Shown here: positions 6,268-39,639 of the stretch, piece after piece
Layout of the letters: the number at the start of each line of letters is the position of its first letter
Numbering within the stretch: position 1 is the stretch's first letter
Virus record (IMG/VR): IMGVR_UViG_3300020451_000410
Coordinates: 1-41,177 of that record
Direction: 5' to 3' (one strand)
DNA length: 41,177 nucleotides
From: a virus
The notes under the pieces: generated by a model
Seen by the model: only the letters and a program-made list of their open reading frames with translations
Told to the model about the DNA's origin: nothing
Databases searched by the model: none
Program-made: the position numbers and the translations under genes

Positions 6268-6959
6268 GGTTAGAAGAATTATTACCTATGTCATTAGAGC
6301 AGTTTAATGACGAATACAGACAGAAGAAGTTTTTAGTAGTAAAATCAAAAGATAATATATTTAAAGACTATTTTAGCTGGAGAGAAGCAGACGCTTATTT
6401 AAATTCTTATGGATTAAATGGTTGGGATAGATTCCCACAATGTCAAATAATAGATTACAAAACAGGTAAGAAGTATTGTCATAGAAAAGCACAATACAAG
6501 TTACAAAAAGAAGATATATTTAAGAAGTGGAAAGAGGGCAGTACATTTGTTCTCTCATTGAGTGAGTTCCTGAATAGAAGATTATGGGAACAATGTCAAC
6601 ACTTCGAGGAGTTCTATGGTAGAGGCCAGGCAAATATCTATATGTCTAGTAAGAAAGACGCAAGATGTTTTCCAACCCATGCCGATACCACAGAAAATTT
6701 CCTGTTCCATGTAAGAGGCAAAGTTCGTTGGTATATCATGAATGAGTACGAACATGAATGTATTCCTCAAAAGGCAACAGTAAATAAACAGATAGACTTG
6801 AGTGAAGGAGATTTATTATATCTTCCTAGCAAGCTCTATCATAGGGTAGATACCCTAGGCCCAAGAATATCAATTTCTTTTCATTTCCATGCTCCTGAAA
6901 AACAAGGGCAGACTTGGAGAGAAGAATGGTTGGACTGGATTGGAGATATAAATGGCTGA
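6264..6959 (+). CDS. JmjC/cupin_4-type oxygenase, ribosomal-oxygenase-like
   Basis: 231 residues. The JmjC-type core contains FPTHADTTENFLFHVRGK with ligands H139 and D141, then LSEGDLLYLPSKLYHRV with the third ligand H193, and RISISFHF after it. The phrase 'GD-LYLP---H-V' is typical of the cupin_4 family, which includes bacterial YcfD/RoxA, a hydroxylase of ribosomal protein uL16. Phage members could act on ribosomal or other proteins; the target here is unknown. It follows two other oxygenases in one operon and overlaps the holin-like gene by 8 bases. Confidence 0.8.
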   Translation: MRLEELLPMSLEQFNDEYRQKKFLVVKSKDNIFKDYFSWREADAYLNSYGLNGWDRFPQCQIIDYKTGKKYCHRKAQYKLQKEDIFKKWKEGSTFVLSLSEFLNRRLWEQCQHFEEFYGRGQANIYMSSKKDARCFPTHADTTENFLFHVRGKVRWYIMNEYEHECIPQKATVNKQIDLSEGDLLYLPSKLYHRVDTLGPRISISFHFHAPEKQGQTWREEWLDWIGDING

Positions 6960-7323
6960 CGAGCGATTTAGTGGCGATATGTCACGAAACGAAGTTGAGA
7001 TAGACCTTAATAAGTTTATGGAAATGGTCAAGGAAATAGGCGAACTTAAGCAGACTATCATGGAGTTGGAAAACGAAAAGGAACCAGATAATCCATATCA
7101 AAAGTGGATTTGGTTATCTAACATGATAGACTCTTGGCGTATATTCCCAAGAATGTTTTTATCAGTTTATATATTCTTACTTTACTATGCAACAATGTGG
7201 TTTATGGCATTGCCAGACCCATCACTAGAGCAATCAGGACTAATCTCTGTGATTGTAGGTGCAGGTGCTGCATGGTTTGGCTTATACGCTGGAACAGCGA
7301 AAGATAAGATAAACAGTAAGTAG
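6952..7323 (+). CDS. Two-span membrane protein, holin candidate
   Basis: 123 residues: a soluble, acidic, probably coiled-coil N-terminus (residues 12-45), one hydrophobic segment FLSVYIFLLYYATMWFMAL (about 68-87) and a second, glycine/alanine-rich one, ISVIVGAGAAWFGLYAGT (about 99-116). The short periplasmic-size loop between them and the charged tail fit a holin or a related membrane protein of phages. It lies some 4 kb from the endolysin and spanins but ends the same transcription unit, just before the next promoter. Function is inferred from topology. Confidence 0.65.
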   Translation: MADERFSGDMSRNEVEIDLNKFMEMVKEIGELKQTIMELENEKEPDNPYQKWIWLSNMIDSWRIFPRMFLSVYIFLLYYATMWFMALPDPSLEQSGLISVIVGAGAAWFGLYAGTAKDKINSK

Positions 7324-7338
7324 TTATTAAACGAACTT

Positions 7339-7378
7339 AAAAATAGTTCTTGACACGACTTCAAATTTTATGTATAAT
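7339..7378 (+). promoter_or_regulatory. Sigma70 promoter upstream of structured RNA
   Basis: 17-mer AAAAATAGTTCTTGACA at 7339-7355, 17-bp spacer, TATAATATA from 7373. Predicted +1 is near 7385. No reading frame follows for over 200 bases; the transcript first covers the structured RNA at 7434-7600. Confidence 0.88.
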
Positions 7379-7433
7379 ATACATAATAGAAAAATTTAAG
7401 TATAAATGAAATAAATTATACTTTAAGCAGTTT

Positions 7434-7600
7434 GGAGCTACCTACAGGACAAGTGAACGGAAGACTGAGGAAAGAGCAACCTAATATATGTAAAAGCGTG
7501 TGAACGCTATAGAAGTAATTAACACAGCAAAATAGAAAATAGGTTAACGACTCGGTACAACGTACCTGCCCCATGAGGGATTGTAGGTAGCTCCTCTTTT
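7434..7600 (+). ncRNA. Structured non-coding RNA, class unknown
   Basis: A perfect 13-bp long-range stem joins 7434-7446 (GGAGCTACCTACA) to 7582-7594 (TGTAGGTAGCTCC), plus one G-U pair. Inside it are ACTGAG/CTCGGT (7464-7469 with 7551-7556), AACCTA/TAGGTT (7478-7483 with 7540-7545), an AGCGT-GTGA-ACGCT hairpin with a GNRA loop (7495-7508), a GGTAC-AAC-GTACC hairpin (7554-7566, an alternative to the CTCGGT pairing) and CCC-ATGA-GGG (7570-7579). The 3' arm is followed by TCTTTTT, so the closing stem may also act as a terminator. It sits behind a consensus promoter with no coding frame. I cannot match it to RNase P, tmRNA or a known riboswitch. Confidence 0.75.
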
Positions 7601-7613
7601 TATGGAGAAGATT

Positions 7614-7853
7614 ATGGCAGATGAGGTCATAAGAGAAAACATGGTAGAAGCAAGTGGTATACGAGCATACGAAATTGATGGTATGAAAGTGACCATGCCA
7701 GCAGATTGGGACGACGACCAAAAACAAAAATGGTTAGAGAAAGCGCGTGACGATATGCATTTGCGTAGAAATTTAAAGATGATTAGAAAAGGCGGTAAAG
7801 AAACTTTACTAGGTAGAGCATTTAGAAAACATGGAGATGACAATGCAGACTAG
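7614..7853 (+). CDS. Unknown small protein
   Basis: 79 residues, acidic N-terminus and basic C-terminus (RRNLKMIRKGGKE), no membrane segment. The ATG at 7614 (MADEVIREN) is preferred to one at 7602 because GGAG lies 7 bases before it. It is the first gene downstream of the structured RNA, and the T-tract of that RNA ends only 14 bases before the start, so its expression may depend on read-through. No family recognised. Confidence 0.6.
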   Translation: MADEVIRENMVEASGIRAYEIDGMKVTMPADWDDDQKQKWLEKARDDMHLRRNLKMIRKGGKETLLGRAFRKHGDDNAD

Positions 7854-8723: not shown

Positions 8724-9003
8724 ATTTAATGAAGATGTAGCACTTGACGTTGTCAAGCGATACATAGATGAAACATATAGTAAACATTACGCTAGTGGAA
8801 AGATTCAGGCAACTGAGTTCATTTTCGATAGTGAACATGGAGAAGGTTTTTGTATTGGGAATATAATGAAATACGCCCAAAGATATGGAAAGAAAGAAGG
8901 CAAGAACCCTGCGGATTTATTAAAGATTATTCACTACGCCATTATGTTGTATGGCAAAGACCATACACTCCTTTTAGACGGAGAAGATTATGGCAGTAAG
9001 TAG
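8710..9003 (+). CDS. DUF3310-like phage protein
   Basis: 97 residues, GTG start overlapping the oxygenase gene. The segment IQATEFI...FCIGNIMKYAQRYGKK and KNPADLLKIIHYAIML matches the DUF3310 family, widespread in phages and sometimes labelled 'nucleotide kinase' after a neighbouring domain. No kinase P-loop is present here, so that name is not supported. The small helical protein probably works in nucleotide or DNA metabolism, but the role is unknown. Confidence 0.7.
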   Translation: MSEYKFNEDVALDVVKRYIDETYSKHYASGKIQATEFIFDSEHGEGFCIGNIMKYAQRYGKKEGKNPADLLKIIHYAIMLYGKDHTLLLDGEDYGSK

Positions 9004-11852: not shown

Positions 11853-12612
11853 ATTTAAACGCCAAAAAGGAAGACAAATTCATTTCTTTGGCGATAGTCA
11901 TATGCTAGGATATGAAGTTGACCATGACCGTGTTCTCGGTCGCAATACTTACAAAGAGAAAAAACAATGGATAGAAAAATATGGTTTGCATAAAGCCATA
12001 CTTCTATGGAATCAGAAAATGGGAAGGGCAACAAAGATGTCCGTATATAATTACGTTCAACAACGCCAACCTGATAGTTATACTATGGTAGGATTTCCAG
12101 ATTCAAAATTAACTGCCTGGCCCGCTATGATGTTTGATTATATGAACTTACGCATGATAGATGATTGGCATAAGGGGTTTTTAAATTCTGGTGACTTAGT
12201 AGCAATTGGTATATCAAGACCTACTAGAACTTACAAATTAGATGAATTAGGAAATTTTGATTATAGATTTGAAGATTTAGATGGAACCCATCAAATGATG
12301 ACAGATGCGCAGTATGCAGCTGAGTGGTCTTTAAGTGCTAGAGCTATTATGGATTTCCTAGAAAACAGAAGTATAGATTATAAGTTTATTAGTCACTTTG
12401 ATATATTTGATGATAGTGTAGAACACATACATAATATTACTTTTCCTAAAAATGCAGTATATACTCAATTATTTATGGACACTCATGCTGAAGTTATGGA
12501 AAAATCAGTTCCTAAACCATTTTATGAGTTTGGAGGAGAAAACGGGTTCTACCACAGAGATGTACAAGCACATAAAGAATATGCAGCATACCTCAAAAAT
12601 TACTTGACATAG
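11836..12612 (+). CDS. SGNH-type hydrolase
   Basis: 258 residues. HFFGDSHMLG near residues 16-25 is a GDS(x) block I with the nucleophile S21; the C-terminal YHRDVQAHKEYA supplies the D-x-x-H pair of block V. SGNH hydrolases act as esterases or deacylases, often on sugars, and some relatives are O-acetyltransferases. No signal peptide is evident. Its TAG stop falls just after the -35 box of the next promoter, so the promoter is embedded in its 3' end. A second protein of this type is at 17329. Confidence 0.7.
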   Translation: MKFINRFKRQKGRQIHFFGDSHMLGYEVDHDRVLGRNTYKEKKQWIEKYGLHKAILLWNQKMGRATKMSVYNYVQQRQPDSYTMVGFPDSKLTAWPAMMFDYMNLRMIDDWHKGFLNSGDLVAIGISRPTRTYKLDELGNFDYRFEDLDGTHQMMTDAQYAAEWSLSARAIMDFLENRSIDYKFISHFDIFDDSVEHIHNITFPKNAVYTQLFMDTHAEVMEKSVPKPFYEFGGENGFYHRDVQAHKEYAAYLKNYLT

Positions 12613-12632
12613 CCTCAAATTTTTAGTATAAT
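12604..12632 (+). promoter_or_regulatory. Sigma70 promoter giving a leaderless mRNA
   Basis: TTGACA (12604-12609), 17-bp spacer, TATAATATA from 12627. The upstream element is a variant (AAAAATTACTTGACA, two bases shorter). Predicted +1 is 12639, the A of the ATG of the next gene. The promoter overlaps the last three codons of the SGNH gene. Confidence 0.85.
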
Positions 12633-12638
12633 ATACTT

Positions 12639-13208
12639 ATGAATATTTTTATACTTGACGAAGATTTAGATAAGTGTGCCGAGTATCATGTCGATAAACA
12701 TATCGTCAAGATGCCACTCGAGGCAGGACAGATGCTGTGCACAGTACATTGGACACAAAAATATGCAGGATACATACCACACAGAAAACTCACATCAGAA
12801 GAATGGGCATCAGTTTCCATTCAAAAAAAGAATGACCCGAGGGATTTCCCTTACCTTCCTACTATGTACAATCACCCTTGTACCATCTGGGCTAGGAGTT
12901 CACAGTCAAACTATGACTGGCTCTACTGTTATGCCCTTGCGTTGGGAGATGAATACACCTATCGATATGGCAAGGTGCATAAATCTGTCGAGATGGTCTT
13001 ATCTTTACCCGAAATTCAACTCCCCGATATTGGACTTACACCATTTGCCCAAGCAATGCCTGATGATTGCAAGCGAGAGTGTGCAGTCGAAGCCTACCGA
13101 GAGTTCTACCACAAAGATAAAGCTGTCTTTGCCGACTGGAAATACAGAGATAAGCCACACTGGTGGGACGAACAAAACGCAGATTATGAGAACAGGATAA
13201 GCAGATAA
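12639..13208 (+). CDS. Conserved phage protein of unknown function
   Basis: 189 residues beginning MNIFILDEDLDKCAEYHVDK and continuing HIVKMPLEAGQMLCTVHW. This N-terminus is typical of a family seen in many T4-type and other marine phages; some members are labelled pyrimidine-dimer glycosylase-like, but I cannot confirm that here. Conserved histidines, tyrosines and tryptophans (MYNHPCTIWARSS) suggest an enzyme. The ATG coincides with the predicted transcription start, so the mRNA should be leaderless. Its TAA stop ends at the first base of the next promoter element. The 174-codon overlapping frame at 12676-13200 is a shadow. Confidence 0.8.
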   Translation: MNIFILDEDLDKCAEYHVDKHIVKMPLEAGQMLCTVHWTQKYAGYIPHRKLTSEEWASVSIQKKNDPRDFPYLPTMYNHPCTIWARSSQSNYDWLYCYALALGDEYTYRYGKVHKSVEMVLSLPEIQLPDIGLTPFAQAMPDDCKRECAVEAYREFYHKDKAVFADWKYRDKPHWWDEQNADYENRISR

Positions 13209-13247
13209 AAAATAGTTCTTGACATCGCCTTATTTTTTTAGTATAAT
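13208..13247 (+). promoter_or_regulatory. Sigma70 promoter giving a leaderless ligase mRNA
   Basis: 17-mer AAAAATAGTTCTTGACA at 13208-13224, 17-bp spacer, TATAATATA from 13242. Predicted +1 is 13254, exactly the A of the ligase ATG. Confidence 0.88.
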
Positions 13248-13253
13248 ATATGT

Positions 13254-14195
13254 ATGAATAAAGATATAAGAGCATATTTAACGAAATGTCGCGAGTCATA
13301 TTTTAATGGTCGCCCTCTCATACCAGATGAAGTGTATGATAGGCTTGTTGAAAATATAAATACAGATGAAGTGGGTTCAGCTACGGACAGTCGTTTCAAG
13401 CACCCCTTCCCTATGTATTCCCTTCAAAAAGTCTTTGCAAACGAAGACAAAGCCCCCGATTATGGCACAGATGCAGTTGTAACTACACCTAAATTAGATG
13501 GTGCAGCGGTATCGCTTACATATATGGACGGCATCTTACATCAAGCACTTACTAGAGGAGATGGTAAAGCAGGCCTTGATATTACTGATAAAGTAAAACA
13601 TATAGTGCCACAAGTACTAGATAAATATGTATTTAGTGGTTGTTTTCAAATTACAGGTGAAGTCTGCGCTCCAAAAACGATACCTAATGCTAGAAACTAT
13701 GCAGCTGGTGCGTTAAATTTAAAAGATGTAAAAGAGTTTAAACAAAGGGAATTAACTTTCGTAACTTATGGAGTACAACCTTATATTGGACAGCGTTGGT
13801 TAGAAGATATGAAGTTCTTAGATAATTGGTTTAATGTAGTATCTCTAGGAAATTGGGATATATTTCCGCAAGACGGAGTAGTATTTAGAGTAGATAGATA
13901 TACTGCATTTGATAAACTAGGACATACTTCGCATCACCCAAGAGGAGCATATGCTTACAAAACAAGAGAAGCAGGCGTAGTAACTGAATTACTAGATGTT
14001 GAATGGCAAGTAGGTAAATCAGGTATTATAGCTCCAGTTGCTATCTTAGCTCCAATCACTATTGGAGAAGCAGTTGTACAACGAGCTACTTTACACAACT
14101 ATGGTTTTATAGAAGAATTAGGACTAGAAATTGGTTGTAAAGTAGAAGTTATTAGAAGTGGGGAAATTATCCCTAAAGTAGTAAGGAGAGTATAA
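13254..14195 (+). CDS. ligA: NAD-dependent DNA ligase, catalytic (N-terminal) half
   Basis: 313 residues with the front part of bacterial LigA: a shortened NMN-binding Ia segment (YFNGRPLIPDEVYDRL, 16-31), the nucleotidyltransferase domain with the adenylated lysine in KLDG (K80), GEVCAP (135-140), DGVVFRVD (207-214) and AYKT (234-237), and then the OB-fold (ELLDVEWQVGKSGIIAPVA to IRSGEIIPKV). It stops where the zinc finger should begin. The missing zinc finger, helix-hairpin-helix and BRCT domains are encoded separately at 18425. Together they would total 564 residues, against roughly 670 in typical LigA. It joins DNA nicks using NAD+. Leaderless start; ends one base into the next gene. Confidence 0.92.
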   Translation: MNKDIRAYLTKCRESYFNGRPLIPDEVYDRLVENINTDEVGSATDSRFKHPFPMYSLQKVFANEDKAPDYGTDAVVTTPKLDGAAVSLTYMDGILHQALTRGDGKAGLDITDKVKHIVPQVLDKYVFSGCFQITGEVCAPKTIPNARNYAAGALNLKDVKEFKQRELTFVTYGVQPYIGQRWLEDMKFLDNWFNVVSLGNWDIFPQDGVVFRVDRYTAFDKLGHTSHHPRGAYAYKTREAGVVTELLDVEWQVGKSGIIAPVAILAPITIGEAVVQRATLHNYGFIEELGLEIGCKVEVIRSGEIIPKVVRRV

Positions 14196-15353: not shown

Positions 15354-15987
15354 AACCCCACCGGGTCCAGCGTTTACGCTAGAAGAACCCCAACTTTCTA
15401 CTAAAATGGATATAATTAAAGTAGGTTTTACTTGGTTTGCAGTTTTACCTAATTTTTGGGGGAAAGAATGGTGTGAAAGATGTATTGATTCAGTAGATAA
15501 TTGGAATCTTACTGACGTCCAAGCGGGTCTTTACAATGGTTGGCCTACTGGTAGACAAAAGAGAAATATAGGTACATTTAATAAACATTATAAAGATACC
15601 TACTATGGAGTAAGCGGGTCTTGGATTAGACTTAATGACGCAATCGAGAAATTTAATGAAGTAACATATAAGTTCAATTTAGAAGAACAATCTAGTTGCT
15701 TTTTGAACCAATATCACGAAGGTTATGTTCTTGATTGGCATAAAGACAACGACGAGTCAGTTGAAGATTTATTCAAAAGGAGGCCGAGTGCTAGAATATC
15801 AGTCAGTATCTTTTTGAATGAAGACTTTGAAGGCGGTGAGTTTGAATTACAAGGAATAAACAAATTCCCTGCTAAAACAGGAACAGCAATAATATTTCCC
15901 TCTGCGCAAGTACATAGAGGGTGTCAAATAAGAAAAGGAACAAAATATAATTTAACATATTGGAGAAAGGGTTGGAGTGTTAGTTAA
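15340..15987 (+). CDS. 2-oxoglutarate/Fe(II) oxygenase
   Basis: 215 residues. The catalytic domain lies in the second half: CFLNQYHEGYVLDWHKDND gives ligands H134 and D136, SVSIFLNEDFEGGEFEL is the typical strand-turn-strand, and IIFPSAQVHRG supplies H192. The 2-oxoglutarate-binding basic residue could be R198 or K202. The N-terminus (TWFAVLPNFWGKEWCERCI) resembles the entry helix of PKHD-type hydroxylases. GGAG lies 5 bases before the ATG. It is next to a SET protein and a carbamoyltransferase. Substrate unknown. Confidence 0.82.
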   Translation: MTTSKTPPGPAFTLEEPQLSTKMDIIKVGFTWFAVLPNFWGKEWCERCIDSVDNWNLTDVQAGLYNGWPTGRQKRNIGTFNKHYKDTYYGVSGSWIRLNDAIEKFNEVTYKFNLEEQSSCFLNQYHEGYVLDWHKDNDESVEDLFKRRPSARISVSIFLNEDFEGGEFELQGINKFPAKTGTAIIFPSAQVHRGCQIRKGTKYNLTYWRKGWSVS

Positions 15988-17332
15988 AGGAATATCAGAA
16001 GGTTTTCACGACGCATCAGTAGCATTAGTTGATGATGAAGGAGTCGTATGGGCTAAACACGCAGAGAGAACAACAAGAAAAAAGAATGATAGAACAAACC
16101 CAGTATCTCTCAGAAATGTTGACGCCGATATATCCGTTTTTTACGAAAATGTACCGCTAAAGAACGAAAGACGTATAGCACATTCACAAGTCCCTGTTTC
16201 AACAAAAATTTTCGAAGATTGTGATTATCACTCAAATCATCACGAAAGCCACGCAGCAGGAGCGTATTATAGTTCACCTTTTACCGAAGACACGGTAATC
16301 CTCGTGATTGATGCGATTGGAGAATGGAATACTTGCAGTATTTGGCAAGTAAATGGTAAAATTTTCAAAAAAGTTTATGAAAAAAATTATCCATATAGTA
16401 TTGGCCTGTTCTACTCAGCAATCACCAAGCGTATTGGTTTGAAGCCAAACGAAGATGAATATATAACTATGGGAATGGCGGCATATGGAGAAGTATGTGT
16501 TGATATGCAGTATTGCTTTAATGAGTGGGCAAATTGGCACAAAGGCTTTAGTTTAAACGATTTTAAAGGTTGTCACCCTTATGATATCGCCGCAAGTGCC
16601 CAAGCACACGCAGAGTTAGAAATCGAAAAGTTAGTAGGCTTAGCAGCTAACTGGGGAACAAATTTATGCTATGCAGGTGGAGTCGCACTCAACTGTGTAG
16701 CCAATAGTAAGATACTACACCACTATTTTAAGAATGTTTGGATTTATCCAAATCCAGGCGATGCTGGTAGTAGTTTAGGTGCGGCACTATGGAAGAAGAA
16801 ACAACATATAAAATACAGTCCCTATCTAGGCACAAACATTGAGAATGAACAAAACCCTAGATTGATAGTGGATTGGTTACTGAAAAAGAAGGTAGTTGGT
16901 ATAGCCAACGGGAGAGCAGAATATGGACCGCGTGCTTTGGGTAATCGGAGTTTGCTGGGTGACGTTCGTTATGATATTAAACATACAGTTAATAGAATCA
17001 AAAAACGTCAGCAGTTTAGACCGTTTGCACCTGCAATATTGTCAGAATTTGCTGAAGAATACTTCGATGGAATAACAAATCCTTATATGCAGTATGTATC
17101 AAAGGCAAAACATGAGTACAATAGTGTAATTCATGTAGATGGCACAAGTAGAGTGCAGACAGTAGAGCCTGATAACCCTAGCATATTGCGACCGATACTC
17201 GAAGAATATTATGAAAAAACTGGAGTGCCTATGTTGTTAAATACAAGTTTAAATATAAAAGGACAACCCATTGTAGATACATGGGAAGACGCACTTCAGT
17301 TTCAAAAAATGTATGGAGTAAAAGTATTTTGA
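15977..17332 (+). CDS. Carbamoyltransferase, NodU/TobZ family
   Basis: 451 residues from a GTG overlapping the oxygenase gene. The N-terminal Kae1-like part has GISEGFHDASVALVDD and the metal-binding HHESHAAGAYYSSPF, then VILVIDAIGEWNT and ITMGMAAYGE. The C-terminal part has RAEYGPRALGNRSLLGD and NRIKKRQQFRPFAPAIL, the YrdC-like carbamoyl-AMP module. These enzymes transfer a carbamoyl group from carbamoyl phosphate to hydroxyls of sugars and similar molecules. It is roughly 100 residues shorter than common NodU/TobZ proteins; such genes occur in marine phages. It ends TTGA, overlapping the SGNH gene. Confidence 0.9.
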   Translation: MLVKGISEGFHDASVALVDDEGVVWAKHAERTTRKKNDRTNPVSLRNVDADISVFYENVPLKNERRIAHSQVPVSTKIFEDCDYHSNHHESHAAGAYYSSPFTEDTVILVIDAIGEWNTCSIWQVNGKIFKKVYEKNYPYSIGLFYSAITKRIGLKPNEDEYITMGMAAYGEVCVDMQYCFNEWANWHKGFSLNDFKGCHPYDIAASAQAHAELEIEKLVGLAANWGTNLCYAGGVALNCVANSKILHHYFKNVWIYPNPGDAGSSLGAALWKKKQHIKYSPYLGTNIENEQNPRLIVDWLLKKKVVGIANGRAEYGPRALGNRSLLGDVRYDIKHTVNRIKKRQQFRPFAPAILSEFAEEYFDGITNPYMQYVSKAKHEYNSVIHVDGTSRVQTVEPDNPSILRPILEEYYEKTGVPMLLNTSLNIKGQPIVDTWEDALQFQKMYGVKVF

Positions 17333-22306: not shown

Positions 22307-22655
22307 AATTTGGGGACAAACAGAACTAGTCCATGCAAATGGAGTTCTAGAGTTTCACAGAATAGAATACAAAGCAGGGTTTAAATGTTCCGAACACCTG
22401 CATGAATTTAAATGGAACGGATTTTATGTCGAAAGTGGTAAAATGTTAATTAGAGTCTGGCAAAATGATTATGACTTAGTTGATGAAACAATATTAGGCC
22501 CAGGCGACTTTACACAAGTTAAGCCAGGAGTAATACATCAATTTGAGGGAATAGAGCCAGGAGTAGCATTTGAACTATATTGGGCAGAATTTAATCACAA
22601 CGATATACAAAGGAGGACAGTCGGTGGCGAAAATTGGAAAAGTAACAAAGGTTAA
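22293..22655 (+). CDS. Cupin-domain protein
   Basis: 120 residues forming one conserved beta-barrel. Motif 1 is around CSEHLHEFKWNGFYVESGK (H-x-H and E) and motif 2 around GDFTQVKPGVIHQFEG (P-x-G-x-x-H). Three histidines and a possible glutamate could bind a metal. Small cupins may be isomerases, dioxygenases or simply sugar/ligand-binding proteins. No substrate can be deduced from the neighbours. Overlaps MazG and the next gene. Confidence 0.78.
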   Translation: MKAGKIWGQTELVHANGVLEFHRIEYKAGFKCSEHLHEFKWNGFYVESGKMLIRVWQNDYDLVDETILGPGDFTQVKPGVIHQFEGIEPGVAFELYWAEFNHNDIQRRTVGGENWKSNKG

Positions 22656-22923
22656 TCCAGTCGCAAAACACTCCAGAAATAAGAGTGGCGCTGGTGCACA
22701 TAAGTCCAAAAAAGACTATGACAGGAAACAAATAAAAGCAATGGATAAAGCAGATAGAGTAATAACAGGGATAGAACTCCCAGAAGAATCAATAGCAAGT
22801 AAATTAGATAGACTCGTACTGCTTGAAAATATGCAAGAACATTGTAATAATCCTAGTATTTGGTTTTCCTATGAGGAAGAAATTCAACTAATAAAAAAGG
22901 AGTTACAAGATGTTGATTTTTGA
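22624..22923 (+). CDS. Unknown basic protein
   Basis: 99 residues from a GTG with AGGAGG about 7 bases upstream. The first 40 residues are strongly basic (KHSRNKSGAGAHKSKKDYDRK), the rest helical and acidic. The tail may bind nucleic acid or a protein partner. I do not recognise a family. Overlaps the cupin gene by 32 bases and the deformylase gene by 14. Confidence 0.6.
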   Translation: MAKIGKVTKVNPVAKHSRNKSGAGAHKSKKDYDRKQIKAMDKADRVITGIELPEESIASKLDRLVLLENMQEHCNNPSIWFSYEEEIQLIKKELQDVDF

Positions 22924-23344
22924 TAAGAAAATATTAAGAAAAAAGTCTTTGCCATGGAAGGGCACAGATGAAGAATTAGAAAAGTTAGTAGACGACATGG
23001 GCGAGACTATGGAAGCAAATAAAGGTATAGGTATATCTGCAATACAGATAGGAGTACCTGTACGAGTATTTTTAGCAGAATACAAGTTGTTTGTAAATCC
23101 ACAAGTAAAAAATCTAAGTCCTTATAAAAAGAAACATTGGGAACAATGTTTAAGTTGTCCAAATCTAAATGTTAGAACTAGTAGACACCATTCTATTACC
23201 ATGAAATATGACACGATTGAAAATGGTGAGTGGGTGAATAAAGAAGAAACATTTAAGGATTGGAGTGCAGTTGTAGTTCAACATGAATACGACCACTTAA
23301 ACGGATTTTTAATTGAAGATAGAGGGAAGTGTTATCGTGGCTAG
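22910..23344 (+). CDS. def: Peptide deformylase
   Basis: 144 residues with all three deformylase motifs: I, GIGISAIQIG (39-48); II, EQCLS with metal ligand C80; III, QHEYDHLNG with ligands H125 and H129 and catalytic E126. The enzyme removes the formyl group from the first methionine of new proteins at the ribosome exit. Marine phages often carry a short form with little C-terminal extension, as here. It pairs logically with bS21 as a translation-related gene, though the two lie in different operons. Overlaps its neighbours by 14 and 8 bases. Confidence 0.93.
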   Translation: MLIFDKKILRKKSLPWKGTDEELEKLVDDMGETMEANKGIGISAIQIGVPVRVFLAEYKLFVNPQVKNLSPYKKKHWEQCLSCPNLNVRTSRHHSITMKYDTIENGEWVNKEETFKDWSAVVVQHEYDHLNGFLIEDRGKCYRG

Positions 23345-30392: not shown

Positions 30393-30945
30393 AATACGAA
30401 CAAGACAACGTTCTCAAAGAAGACTTTGGGCACTAAAAAGACGCAAAATGCAAGAAGAAAGAGTAAATTGTAAGGAAGATTTAGTCTTCCCTATTTATGT
30501 TATACATAGTGATAATGTTGAGTTAATTGACGGCATACTATGGATTGACGACCAAGTACTAGATGATAAAAATATGCTTGGTACGACTCTAGGGCGTCGT
30601 AGGATTCAAACTCCTATGAAAAGCATTTATCCTCTAAGATACATGATAGAAGACGAAGTTGGACTCATGCGTCATAGGGGGAAGACTTTTATTGATAATC
30701 ATGGTAGAGTTTTTAATTATGAAAAAACGGAAACCTGTAAAATACATTATCATAAAATTCTTAAAAGAGAAAAGAAAACATCAGCTACAGTATTGTGGCT
30801 AAAAGATTGTCCTTTTCCTTTCGCAGAGAAAAGTCCGCCTAATGTAGAATTAACATGGGCAGGAGTATTATATCGAGAGGGTATACCTTGGAAAATATAT
30901 GATTTCTCAACTGAAAGACAGAAATCGACATGGAGAAAAATATGA
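30370..30945 (+). CDS. Unknown protein with basic N-terminus
   Basis: 191 residues from a TTG with AAGGA 6 bases upstream. The first 30 residues are very basic (KRKHQTKIRTRQRSQRRLW), then a beta-rich body (FPIYVIHSDNVELIDGILWI) follows. I recognise no motif. The basic tail suggests DNA or RNA binding. Overlaps the GNAT gene by 23 bases and the glutaredoxin gene by 4. Confidence 0.6.
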   Translation: MKRKHQTKIRTRQRSQRRLWALKRRKMQEERVNCKEDLVFPIYVIHSDNVELIDGILWIDDQVLDDKNMLGTTLGRRRIQTPMKSIYPLRYMIEDEVGLMRHRGKTFIDNHGRVFNYEKTETCKIHYHKILKREKKTSATVLWLKDCPFPFAEKSPPNVELTWAGVLYREGIPWKIYDFSTERQKSTWRKI

Positions 30946-31184
30946 ATATACAGATATATGGAAAGCCAAACTGCCCGTTTTGTGATAAGGCAAAATTTAT
31001 TTCACAAGCATTTATTCAGGAAACACATCATACTTATGAATATAAACAGTTAGGAAATGATTTTGATATGCAATTTGTTGCACAAAACTTCCCTACTGCT
31101 CGTACGTTTCCACAAATTGTAATTGATGGAGAAAATATCGGTGGATACACCGAATTGGAGGCATTTTTAAGTGGATATAAATAA
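30942..31184 (+). CDS. grx: Glutaredoxin
   Basis: 80 residues, the normal length for a small glutaredoxin. The active site is CPFC (C11, C14) after a beta-strand IQIYGKPN, with TFPQIVIDG (cis-proline loop) and GGYTELEAF (glutathione-binding) later. It is a likely electron donor for the ribonucleotide reductase that begins at 40904. The start at 30942 has GGAG upstream and a 4-base overlap with the previous gene. Confidence 0.92.
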   Translation: MNIQIYGKPNCPFCDKAKFISQAFIQETHHTYEYKQLGNDFDMQFVAQNFPTARTFPQIVIDGENIGGYTELEAFLSGYK

Positions 31185-31485: not shown

Positions 31486-32994
31486 ATGTGTGGTTTTGTA
31501 GGCACAACTAATAAGCCCTTATGTAAGCTAATGCTTCAAAAACAGGAGCACCGTGGCCCAGACGGTATGTCTTTCTGGGAGAACGATAAGTTCGCTTTTG
31601 GTCATGCCCTTCTGGACATTACAGGAGCAAAACAAATGCAACCTGTAAAAACTCCAAAAGGAAACATAATTATGTTTAATGGAGAAATGTATGATAGTAG
31701 AGAAAAGAACGATACAGTATGGTTGGGCAAAATGCTCGACAAATATGGTGTTTCTGTACTAGAATGGACAGATTGGCATGGCTCAATAGCATGGCTTAAT
31801 CTAGAAAAGAACGAATTAGTCTTAATACGAGACCAATTTGGAACAAAGCCTCTATGGTGGGGATTTGATGGCAAAACTTTTGAATTTAGTACAAGTTGTA
31901 AATCTTTTTTACATAAAGAGTTAGAAACTAATGAAAGAAAGTTTGGCTCTATGGGAGATGAATGTATTTGGAAAGGCTACCACAAAGTAGAGGCGGGTGG
32001 TTTTTTAACATTTGATTTAAATAATAAATATAAACTAAATAGAAGAAATTTATGGAATTGGCTTACATTTCATAAAGAAGAAATAGACGCAGAAGAATTT
32101 AGAGAAAGAACAAAAGAGTCTATTTTAAAAGTAGCAAACTATGGCAATTCTACTAATAAACACGCTATATTTCTTAGTGGTGGTTTTGATAGTACATTAG
32201 TTGCTAGTATATGCCGTGAAAGTACTAAGGATATCACGCTTTTCACTTGCGGTTATACAAACGAAAAAGGAAATACTCATGAACATTGGGGTTTCCAAAA
32301 TGAAAGTAAAATGGCTCTACAAAGTGCCGAATTATGGGGTAGACCTGTAGTAAAAGTAGACTTAGGTAGAGACGAAAGAATATCATTAGGAAAAACTTGG
32401 TTAGCAGGAACACATTACGCATGGTCAGACCATAATAGACAAGCTCCTAGATATAAATTGGCTAAAGCAGCTGCAGAATATGGGTGTAAAGTTGTACTAA
32501 CAGGAGATAGTGGAGACGAGCTATACTCAGGGTATTTACACCACGATAAAAGATTTGATGAACAATACTGCTTAGCAATGATGGAACAAGCAAAAGACTG
32601 GAGATGGTTTCCTTCTGATGTATTTGAGTATTCTGACCCTATGGCAAATAGTCTTTTTATAGATTTACTTACTACATCAGAGCAGAATATTCTTGCTACT
32701 GACCAAACAGTAGGGTTATTTGGTATGGAGTCTAGAATTCCTTTACTTACACAAAGGTATGTTCATTATAATATGAAAATACCAACAAAAACAAGATTTA
32801 AACAATTACCACAGTACCAAAAAGGTACAACAAAGTACTTAATGAGAGAAGTTATGAAAGAGTACTTACCTGACCATGTAGTAAATAGAAAGAATAAAAC
32901 AGGGTGGAGCAGTCCATGGGATAATAACCACCCACAACAAGCAATGCGTTGGAGAGACGAAGATTTAGAATTGCTAAGGAGATTGGGCGCATGA
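31486..32994 (+). CDS. asnB: Asparagine synthase, glutamine-hydrolysing type
   Basis: 502 residues with both domains of the AsnB family. The class II glutaminase has the N-terminal nucleophile Cys2 (MCGFVG), EHRGPDG and IMFNGEMYDS. The synthetase has the PP-loop LSGGFDSTL and TGDSGDELYSGY, ending KNKTGWSSPW. It makes an amide from a carboxylate with glutamine and ATP. Phage homologues may amidate aspartate, or a sugar or other acid as in WbpS-like proteins, so the true acceptor is open. Start directly follows the previous stop (TAAATG). Confidence 0.9.
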   Translation: MCGFVGTTNKPLCKLMLQKQEHRGPDGMSFWENDKFAFGHALLDITGAKQMQPVKTPKGNIIMFNGEMYDSREKNDTVWLGKMLDKYGVSVLEWTDWHGSIAWLNLEKNELVLIRDQFGTKPLWWGFDGKTFEFSTSCKSFLHKELETNERKFGSMGDECIWKGYHKVEAGGFLTFDLNNKYKLNRRNLWNWLTFHKEEIDAEEFRERTKESILKVANYGNSTNKHAIFLSGGFDSTLVASICRESTKDITLFTCGYTNEKGNTHEHWGFQNESKMALQSAELWGRPVVKVDLGRDERISLGKTWLAGTHYAWSDHNRQAPRYKLAKAAAEYGCKVVLTGDSGDELYSGYLHHDKRFDEQYCLAMMEQAKDWRWFPSDVFEYSDPMANSLFIDLLTTSEQNILATDQTVGLFGMESRIPLLTQRYVHYNMKIPTKTRFKQLPQYQKGTTKYLMREVMKEYLPDHVVNRKNKTGWSSPWDNNHPQQAMRWRDEDLELLRRLGA

Positions 32995-34932: not shown

Positions 34933-34972
34933 AAAAATAGTTCTTGACAAGTCCTCAAAAAATTGGTATAAT
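34933..34972 (+). promoter_or_regulatory. Sigma70 promoter for ssb/recombination unit
   Basis: 17-mer AAAAATAGTTCTTGACA at 34933-34949, 17-bp spacer, TATAATATA from 34967. Predicted +1 is near 34979, just inside the proposed ATG (34975) of the next gene, a geometry that leaves that start in doubt. It lies 30 bp after the helicase stop. Confidence 0.87.
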
Positions 34973-34974
34973 AT

Positions 34975-35361
34975 ATGATATATTTTGACTGGAAGAAGAT
35001 TCTGGAAGCGACTAATGGCAATGTTGGTGACATCATAACCATTATGAGAATTATAACTTTTAGAATTACCCCAAAAAATTATTACGATAAGACTTTTAAG
35101 TTTTACGAAAAGAACTTTCACGGTAGCTCATTCTTGGTTAACCCAAAGGATTTGCTAGAGAAAGGGCGTGCCTTTAGTGATAAAGAGGTTGCGGAGTATG
35201 TAGGTGTTGCATCATTCCGAAATTCTTACGAGTACGCAAAAACAAAAGACACCACATTAGACCTCATTTTCTGTCAAGTTAGTGAGGACACGATTAACCA
35301 AAACAGACTGCTCGAGATTAGAGATGGAAAGGTTCATTTCAAATACGAGGAGACACAATAA
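34975..35361 (+). CDS. Unknown phage protein upstream of SSB
   Basis: 128 residues from ATG 34975, or 105 from ATG 35044. MIYFDWKKILEATNGN, then FHGSSFLVNPKDLLEKGRAF and DKEVAEYVGVASFRNSYEYA look like a conserved helical phage protein, but I know no function. The first ATG begins only 3 bases after the TATAAT box, before the predicted transcription start, so either transcription starts unusually early or the shorter form is made. Codon content in the first 23 codons looks coding. The next gene follows after 11 bases with AAGGAG. Confidence 0.6.
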   Translation: MIYFDWKKILEATNGNVGDIITIMRIITFRITPKNYYDKTFKFYEKNFHGSSFLVNPKDLLEKGRAFSDKEVAEYVGVASFRNSYEYAKTKDTTLDLIFCQVSEDTINQNRLLEIRDGKVHFKYEETQ

Positions 35362-35372
35362 GGAGAATTATT

Positions 35373-35999
35373 ATGGCAATAGGCTTTAATACAACTAAGG
35401 GCTCTGCCCAAAAGTCCAAAATTGAAACTTACAATTTTGGCAATAAGGAAGATCATCACATTAGATTAGTTGGTGACCTTCTACCGAGATATGTCTACTG
35501 GATAAAAGGCGAGAACAACAAAAACATTCCTATGGAGTGTTTGTCTTTCGATAGAAACTCCGAGACATTCAACAATATCGAGCATGACCATGTTCGAGAT
35601 TTTTACCCTGACTTAAAATGCGGTTGGGCTTATGCAGTCCAGGGGATTGACTACTCTGACAAAACTGTCAAGGTTGTTAATCTAAAAAGGAAACTTTTTG
35701 ACCAAATTTTAGTAGCTATGGAAGAATTAGGAAATCCTACTGACGTAGAAACTGGTTGGGATATATTCTTCAAGAGATTGAAGACTGGCCCACAAGTGTT
35801 TAATGTTGAGTATCAACTGCAAATGCTTAAGTGTAAGCCAAGAGCATTAGAGGATTGGGAACAAGAACTCATAGCAGAACTTAAGTCTATGGACGACGTG
35901 CTTCCTAGACCTACACCTGATGCTCAGTTAGAACTACTTAAGAAAGTTCAAGGTGCAGATTCTAACGAAACTGTAGACGAGGAGTTTGACGTATCATGA
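35373..35999 (+). CDS. ssb: Single-stranded DNA-binding protein, T4 gp32-like
   Basis: 208 residues. The layout fits phage SSBs: a short flexible N-terminus, an OB-fold-like core (HIRLVGDLLPRYVYWIKG, then VKVVNLKRKLFDQILVAMEEL and GPQVFNVEYQLQMLKCKP) and an acidic C-terminal tail (SNETVDEEFDVS) for binding partner proteins. The gp32-type zinc ligands are not clear. It coats ssDNA at forks and recombination intermediates. AAGGAG precedes the ATG, and it has its own promoter one gene upstream, consistent with high expression. Overlaps peroxiredoxin by 4 bases. Confidence 0.78.
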   Translation: MAIGFNTTKGSAQKSKIETYNFGNKEDHHIRLVGDLLPRYVYWIKGENNKNIPMECLSFDRNSETFNNIEHDHVRDFYPDLKCGWAYAVQGIDYSDKTVKVVNLKRKLFDQILVAMEELGNPTDVETGWDIFFKRLKTGPQVFNVEYQLQMLKCKPRALEDWEQELIAELKSMDDVLPRPTPDAQLELLKKVQGADSNETVDEEFDVS

Positions 36000-36505
36000 T
36001 TGGAGTAGGACAAAAGTTTCCTGAATTTGAATTACAGGGAGTAAATGAAAATAATGAATTCGGAGTCATTGCAGACCACGATATTCAAGGTTGGGCAGTA
36101 ATATACTTTTACCCAAAAGATTTTACTTTTATTTGTCCAACAGAAATTGCAGGTTTCGATACTTTAGTTGATGATGATGTTACTGTAATAGGTATATCTG
36201 GAGACAACGAGCATTGCAAACACGCATGGAGAGAAGTTAACGGTGGCATTAGAGATATTGACCATTGGTTAGCGGCTGACTGTGGACTCTATTTAGCAGA
36301 AGAACTAGGAATAGTTGATGAAGCTGAAGGAGTTGCTCTGAGAGCCACTTACATATTAGACGACATGGGTACTATCCAGCACGTCTCAGTAAATGGACTT
36401 GATACAGGTAGAAATCATGAGGAGATAGCAAGAACACTTGCGTCTCTACAAGAGGAAGGACTCACAGGTTGCAACTGGCAACCAGGAGACGACTACGTCG
36501 CATGA
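35996..36505 (+). CDS. Peroxiredoxin, AhpC/TSA family
   Basis: 169 residues, a 2-Cys peroxiredoxin. YPKDFTFICPTEIAGF carries the catalytic P-x-x-x-T-x-x-C (T44, C47). GCNWQPGDDYV at the C-terminus carries the resolving cysteine C159. It reduces hydrogen peroxide and organic peroxides with a thiol donor, possibly a thioredoxin/glutaredoxin system. Peroxiredoxins are uncommon in phages. It is tightly overlapped (ATGA on both sides) between SSB and the recombination nuclease, so it is co-expressed with replication genes. Confidence 0.93.
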   Translation: MIGVGQKFPEFELQGVNENNEFGVIADHDIQGWAVIYFYPKDFTFICPTEIAGFDTLVDDDVTVIGISGDNEHCKHAWREVNGGIRDIDHWLAADCGLYLAEELGIVDEAEGVALRATYILDDMGTIQHVSVNGLDTGRNHEEIARTLASLQEEGLTGCNWQPGDDYVA

Positions 36506-39233: not shown

Positions 39234-39413
39234 ATGAAAGATGGAGATACTTTTTGGTTACACATATGCCCTTACAAACCTGAGTTTAGACAGTATATAC
39301 CAGTTGGTTCAACCTGTAAAACTTGCGATTGGGAAGAGCTTAGCAACCATGAAAAAGCAATAATAAGACAACAAGAACATAGAGACAGAATGGAAGAAGA
39401 TTATGACTACTGA
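39234..39413 (+). CDS. Unknown small cysteine-containing protein
   Basis: 59 residues (MKDGDTFWLHICPYKPEF...). Cysteines in HICPY and GSTCKTCDW, with histidines nearby, could form a small zinc site. The C-terminal half is a charged helix. The ATG is one base after the gp46 stop, and the gene overlaps the acyl carrier protein start by 11 bases. Function unknown. Confidence 0.6.
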   Translation: MKDGDTFWLHICPYKPEFRQYIPVGSTCKTCDWEELSNHEKAIIRQQEHRDRMEEDYDY

Positions 39414-39639
39414 CATAGAGATAGTATTAAGTACTATAGAAAATCAACTAAACTTGCCAAGAGGTACAGTTAAACCTGGAGGAGATTTAGTTGCAGACTA
39501 TGGAGCTGACTCTCTAGATATGGTAGAACTAGCAATGACTCTGGAGGACTTACTAGATATAGAAGTTCCCGATGATGCAGTCAAAGACCTAAAGCTTCAT
39601 GATGTTGATAATTTAATTAAATTTGTAAAAGCACAGTAA
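39403..39639 (+). CDS. acpP: Acyl carrier protein
   Basis: 78 residues, full length and strongly acidic like bacterial AcpP. YGADSLDMVELAMTLED contains the DSL motif; S37 is the site for 4'-phosphopantetheine. It should carry acyl or other carboxylic groups as thioesters, after modification by a host AcpS. A carrier protein in a phage, placed between the gp46-like ATPase and a nuclease, is unusual. It may redirect fatty-acid synthesis, or serve one of the tailoring enzymes encoded upstream. GGAAGAAG precedes the ATG. Confidence 0.93.
   Translation: MTTDIEIVLSTIENQLNLPRGTVKPGGDLVADYGADSLDMVELAMTLEDLLDIEVPDDAVKDLKLHDVDNLIKFVKAQ

Follow-up and report, generated by a model that had tools for sequence, protein, structure and literature searches.

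A conserved, structured non-coding RNA family behind a consensus promoter in uncultured marine phages

The DNA analyzed here, called the window throughout, is a viral stretch of 41,177 nucleotides (IMG/VR record IMGVR_UViG_3300020451_000410, positions 1 to 41,177), the DNA polymerase of which shows 45–46% identity to those of T5-like phages. The window also holds possible auxiliary genes (15977–17332, 22910–23344, 30930–31184, 31486–32994, 35996–36505, and 39403–39639), among them a carbamoyltransferase with a PHROG match and, as judged by eye from the translations, a peptide deformylase, a glutaredoxin, an asparagine synthase-like protein, a peroxiredoxin, and an acyl carrier protein. The locus under study lies between the genes for a small membrane protein and a small basic protein. 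It starts with a sigma70-type promoter and a short 5' hairpin, after which the stem P1 closes a junction carrying a long arm and the side hairpin P5. From base to tip, the long arm is built of the helices AG/CU and ACN/NGU, P2, P3, and the P4 pseudoknot, which is of the H-type. The features are as follows.

6952..7323, plus strand: small membrane protein preceding the locus (context only); PHROG 10198, at least 575 relatives in IMG/VR
7350..7378, plus strand: sigma70-type promoter TTGACA-17-TATAAT, 12/12 match; the upstream AAAAATAGTTC is common to other promoters of the same phage
7398..7423, plus strand: P0, 5' hairpin just past the expected transcription start in class A homologues; predicted from the fold, with other stem sequences in L008, L129, and L133 by eye
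7434..7446, plus strand: P1 5' strand, 13-bp closing stem; 10/12 pairs with changes on both sides in the 12-sequence alignment, and paired in 23–24 of 24 relatives nearly throughout
7452..7459, plus strand: conserved AGUGAAC(N); AG pairs with 7566–7567, ACG pairs with 7561–7563, and UGA forms an internal loop
7464..7469, plus strand: P2 5' strand, in both alignments; many relatives have a pyrimidine–pyrimidine internal loop here
7478..7483, plus strand: P3 5' strand, in both alignments; 100% paired in the 12-sequence alignment
7495..7508, plus strand: P4 hairpin AGCG-UGUGAA-CGCU, containing the pseudoknot 5' strand UGU (7499–7501) and the strongly conserved GAACGC
7522..7524, plus strand: pseudoknot 3' strand ACA, partner of 7499–7501, with covarying variants
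7540..7545, plus strand: P3 3' strand, in both alignments
7551..7556, plus strand: P2 3' strand, in both alignments
7561..7567, plus strand: CGU-AC-CU, 3' partner of 7452–7459, in the 24-sequence alignment
7569..7579, plus strand: P5 side hairpin CCC..GGG, in both alignments; variable in length among relatives
7582..7594, plus strand: P1 3' strand, in both alignments
7595..7601, plus strand: U-run TCTTTTT at the base of P1, a possible RNA 3' end, judged by the U-run counts in relatives
7614..7853, plus strand: gene for the small basic protein, which counts 79 aa when begun here; always downstream of the RNA and conserved in all relatives

The structured RNA thus spans 7434–7594, approximately 160 nt. 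A preliminary description, made from the sequence of the window alone, had placed here a perfect 13-bp stem, two nested stems, a hairpin at 7495–7508, and a trailing TCTTTTT behind a full-consensus promoter. All of these coordinates were correct, the promoter matched the consensus at 12 of 12 positions, and the closing stem was Watson–Crick at 13 of 13 pairs. The hairpin at 7495–7508 had been described as having a GTGA loop; its position holds, but the loop reads UGUGAA. Three elements were missing from that description, namely the pseudoknot 7499–7501/7522–7524, the helix 7457–7459/7561–7563 with its three pairs within the junction closed by P1, and the 5' hairpin 7398–7423. The folding energy of the region was lower than that of dinucleotide shuffles (z −3.1 for 7425–7605 and z −3.6 for 7385–7605), and the 13-bp closing stem, by itself worth approximately −23 kcal/mol, appeared in none of 5000 mononucleotide shuffles.

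The search for homologues yielded 26 distinct ones, all on marine IMG/VR contigs. The first relatives were found by searching with the downstream protein, and further ones using DNA patterns of the conserved unpaired letters together with a profile of that protein. A structure-based hand alignment was made of 24 distinct RNAs, which have a median pairwise identity of 45% and 26% identity in the most distant pair. The remaining two, L262 and L304, were found through their neighboring genes and possess the same helices with new sequences, including pseudoknots of 7 bp (L262) and 4 bp (L304) assigned by eye. A covariance model built from 12 homologues scored the other relatives searched at E values from 1e-14 to 2e-4, leaving L262 unscored, and gave a single strong match per contig.

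The hand alignment had been adjusted to the structure, so the less biased test of covariation was a MAFFT alignment of the 12 sequences made blind to structure. In this alignment, 90.6% of the cells were paired, compared with at most 45.6% in slid registers, and changes on both sides of a pair were counted in 63 cells covering 18 pairs (22.9 on average in shuffles and no more than 16 in slid registers). Across the 24 hand-aligned RNAs, P1 showed two to five pair types, and ACN/NGU, P2, and P3 covaried. When placed on the tree of the 79-aa protein, these RNAs required at least 115 replacements of one Watson–Crick pair by another, 66 of them in P1. The last pair of the helix 7457–7459/7561–7563 is A-U in 14, U-G in 6, G-C in 2, and U-A in 2 of the 24 aligned RNAs and C-G in L262. 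The pseudoknot UGU/ACA is replaced by UCU/AGA in L147 and by CCU/AGG in the L181 and L185 group, while L262 has AUAUACA/UGUAUAU and a P4 changed to AGAGC/GCUCU. The tolerance of G-U pairs in P1 and the junction helix speaks for an RNA, as opposed to a DNA element. Among the unpaired letters, GUGAAC, GAACGC, and AAGU-A-UAA are conserved. The purine-rich unpaired stretches that had been proposed as binding sites turned out to be unconserved, GAGGAAAGAG reading GAGAATCCG in L003.

Every reading frame is interrupted within the RNA in each of the 24 homologues, in line with the preliminary description of the window, and the compensatory changes it had named as confirmation were found in abundance, including in the 13-bp stem. 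Together, covariation and the lack of an open frame confirm that the consensus promoter is followed by a phage RNA that is structured and does not code for protein, and it is nearly certain that the family of 7434–7594 is real and conserved. The opposing view, that an AT-rich spacer folds here by chance and has no function, is refuted by the covariation; the homologue search left no point in its support, and we give it next to no credence.

The preliminary description could not match the RNA to a class known to it, and this was borne out against the whole of Rfam 15, which contained no match at the gathering score and none for the locus at E values up to 10. Nine further loci likewise had no Rfam match at the RNA when E values up to 5 were allowed, and the window contained no tRNA or tmRNA. 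A blast of the RNA against phage records returned only AT-rich chance matches. On four cultivated T5-like (Demerecviridae) phages, the covariance model gave a best E value of 0.26, which is at chance level. The RNA pattern had one match in bacterial genomes, a chance match in Arthrobacter. The exact pattern GAGGAAAGAGCAACC was present in 103 stretches; after the follow-up filter, near-identical copies of the window RNA were all that remained. No described equivalent was found in the literature outside subscription papers. Bacterial RNase P RNA was considered on account of GAGGAAAG and AGAAA..GG and was ruled out, the motifs being unconserved: GAGGAAAG occurs in the window sequence only (L003, L005, L008, and others differ), and the RNase P trait of CR-I GAGGAAAGU pairing with CR-V as P4 was not found. 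Reading the RNA revealed no tandem repeats, the trait of the RNA antitoxin in type III toxin–antitoxin systems, where they precede the gene for a toxin of that kind; the protein downstream of the present RNA had no Pfam or PHROG match above noise.

Several known RNAs nevertheless invite comparison. The structured RNAs manA, wcaG, PhotoRC-II, and Ocean-V are known mainly from marine metagenomes, and the first three, in or near phage operons and reported in cyanophage too, were proposed to be cis-regulatory (Weinberg et al. 2010, PMC2864571). The present RNA resembles these four as a structured RNA of marine metagenomes, but it has no Rfam match, other downstream genes, and a terminal U-run of its own. 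The pseudoknot in the phage T4 gene 32 leader lies upstream of the gene for a nucleic-acid-binding protein and serves as a model of autoregulation. Here, in contrast, the pseudoknot sits within a closed domain of 160 nt, genes may intervene between the RNA and the protein, and the binding of the RNA by the small basic protein is putative. The put antitermination RNA of HK022 is likewise nascent, structured, and close behind a phage promoter but differs from the present RNA in size, closing stem, and U-run. In being compact, 150–400 nt long, and paired at its ends, the RNA is like the phi29 packaging RNA, 6S RNA, and bacterial RNase P RNA, none of which reached an Rfam score at the locus.

The gene for the basic protein lies downstream of the RNA in all 26 homologues. 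Searches of Pfam, PHROG, and PDB gave nothing above noise for the protein, which also had no relative in cultivated phages or bacterial genomes and a poor predicted structure (mean pLDDT 56). Four layouts are seen at one place, all of them behind the same membrane protein.

Class A (window): promoter, RNA, 79-aa gene
Class B (L127, L175, L181, L185, L203, L209, L262): promoter, leaderless ORF of 48–50 aa, RNA, 79-aa gene
Class B variant L213: RNA, lipoprotein-like gene, 79-aa gene
Class B variant L194: RNA, short ORF, NifU-like gene, further small ORF, 79-aa gene
Class C (L188–L193): no RNA; zinc-ribbon-like ORF, 197-aa ORF, shorter form of the 79-aa gene

The intervening gene at L194:3449–3835 reads by eye as a NifU-like iron–sulfur scaffold. 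In L188–L193, the place of the RNA is taken by relatives of two window genes (12639–13208 and 22570–22923), as if modules were exchanged at a hotspot. The at least 575 IMG/VR relatives of the membrane protein have very different genes behind them. The model search of 78 of these relatives, many of them near-duplicates and some truncated, found 73 without the RNA; the RNA was present in five (four scored by the model, and L262), each with the 79-aa gene. As class C has a shorter protein and lacks the RNA, the protein can in some cases do without it. The RNA is always accompanied by the 79-aa gene, yet the intervening genes and class C indicate that it goes with the operon without being that gene's strict leader.

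The RNA is located at the start of the operon, either immediately 3' of the promoter or within approximately 220 nt of it, and in the relatives read a similar promoter precedes it directly or stands before the short ORF. The promoter element of the RNA locus recurs elsewhere in the window. At 12604–12641, 13219–13256, 849 (minus strand), and 34944–34977, promoters have an ATG 3–10 nt after the TATAAT box, so that the mRNAs would be leaderless or nearly so. A second promoter with a structured leader is seen at 1389–1507, ahead of a small heat-shock-like protein gene (ORF 1508–1894). This leader (z −3.3 compared with shuffles) forms three hairpins, and CCGAAAGG caps two of these; it may represent an RNA thermometer or else a second RNA element.

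P1 is followed at its base by at least four U in 20 of the 24 relatives, compared with 7 of the 59 gene starts of the window; the count of 20 comprises 17 found by script and three obtained when the last U of P1 is included. The run is absent in L136, L137, L139, and L262 and weak in L209. This position of the U-run suggests that the 3' end of the RNA may be formed there. The U-run, ribosome-binding site, and start context seen behind the RNA are repeated in the window at 8968–8994 (CTCCTTTTAGACGGAGAAGATTATGGC).

The preliminary description had left a choice between a free RNA and a cis-acting leader or attenuator of the gene at 7614. Of this, the translational leader is weakened, since other genes separate the RNA from the 7614 homologue in L213 and L194 and the gene occurs in one clade that lacks the RNA. 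Support was likewise missing for a conserved Shine–Dalgarno switch: pairing of the Shine–Dalgarno sequence with the closing stem in an alternative fold exceeded shuffles in only 5 of the 24 relatives and was unconserved. The U-run at the base of P1 together with this unconserved pairing favors partial termination with read-through. The attenuator and the free RNA are close rivals of the mechanism that we favor. A cis-acting transcription attenuator or riboswitch-like leader, in which the folded domain sets termination at P1 and the U-run for the whole operon and the free RNA has no function, would agree with the constant position at the operon start, the stem followed directly by the U-run in 20 of 24, and the strict co-occurrence with the downstream protein gene; the genes inserted in L213 and L194 would still lie behind such an attenuator. 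However, P1 is too stable for easy switching, no conserved antiterminator or alternative pairing of P1 was found by eye, and sequestration of the Shine–Dalgarno sequence is as rare as stated above, so that we consider this explanation somewhat unlikely.

An RNA acting in trans, independently of the operon, for instance as a decoy or sponge for a host protein with the basic protein as a mere neighbor, would account for the own promoter and 5' hairpin of class A, the compact pseudoknotted fold with its conserved unpaired letters, the retention of this fold despite the genes inserted behind it, and the one strong match per contig. It appears rather unlikely to us, as the RNA was never found outside this operon, although the searches were partly biased by sequence. 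An RNA that, in the manner of the HK022 put RNAs, acts as a processive antiterminator on the polymerase transcribing it would fit two observations: the constant link is the one with the promoter, not the one with the following gene, and the operon that the RNA opens is made of small genes. Against it stand the U-run at the closing stem of the RNA itself, the other promoters of the same phage that have no such RNA, and the size of the put RNA, which is less than half that of the present one. We regard antitermination as improbable.

The reading that we favor, tentatively, is that of a new phage RNA family in which partial termination is combined with a protein-binding core, the basic protein being the most likely partner. 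Transcription would start at the RNA's own strong promoter and, in some relatives, first cross the leaderless ORF of 48–50 aa seen in their layout. P1 and the U-run would act as an inefficient terminator, with some transcripts ending as a free RNA of approximately 215 nt and the remaining ones running into the operon headed by the small basic protein. The compact core, with its conserved internal loops and H-type pseudoknot, may then bind a protein. This is the weakest step, for which the basic protein of the same operon is the most likely partner judging by linkage. The outcome would be a ribonucleoprotein or a feedback loop on the operon. The covariation, the lack of an open frame, the U-run, and the basic protein gene downstream in 26 of 26 all argue for this mechanism. 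It should be noted that a terminator loop of approximately 135 nt is unusual, that the U-run is short or absent in the five relatives named above, that L188–L193 have the shorter protein and no RNA there, and that the basic protein, with its poorly predicted structure, has no recognised RNA-binding domain.

Well-supported new viral RNA families are rare. The RNA described here covaries at nearly all of its pairs, contains a pseudoknot, and has a likely partner gene, which makes it directly testable. It is possible, if doubtful, that the pseudoknotted RNA and the small basic protein form an undescribed phage ribonucleoprotein, a module at a hotspot behind a widespread membrane-protein gene that would be used in takeover by uncultured marine phages with T5-like replication genes. 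As the family shows, large folded RNAs outside the present coverage of Rfam exist in uncultured marine phages.
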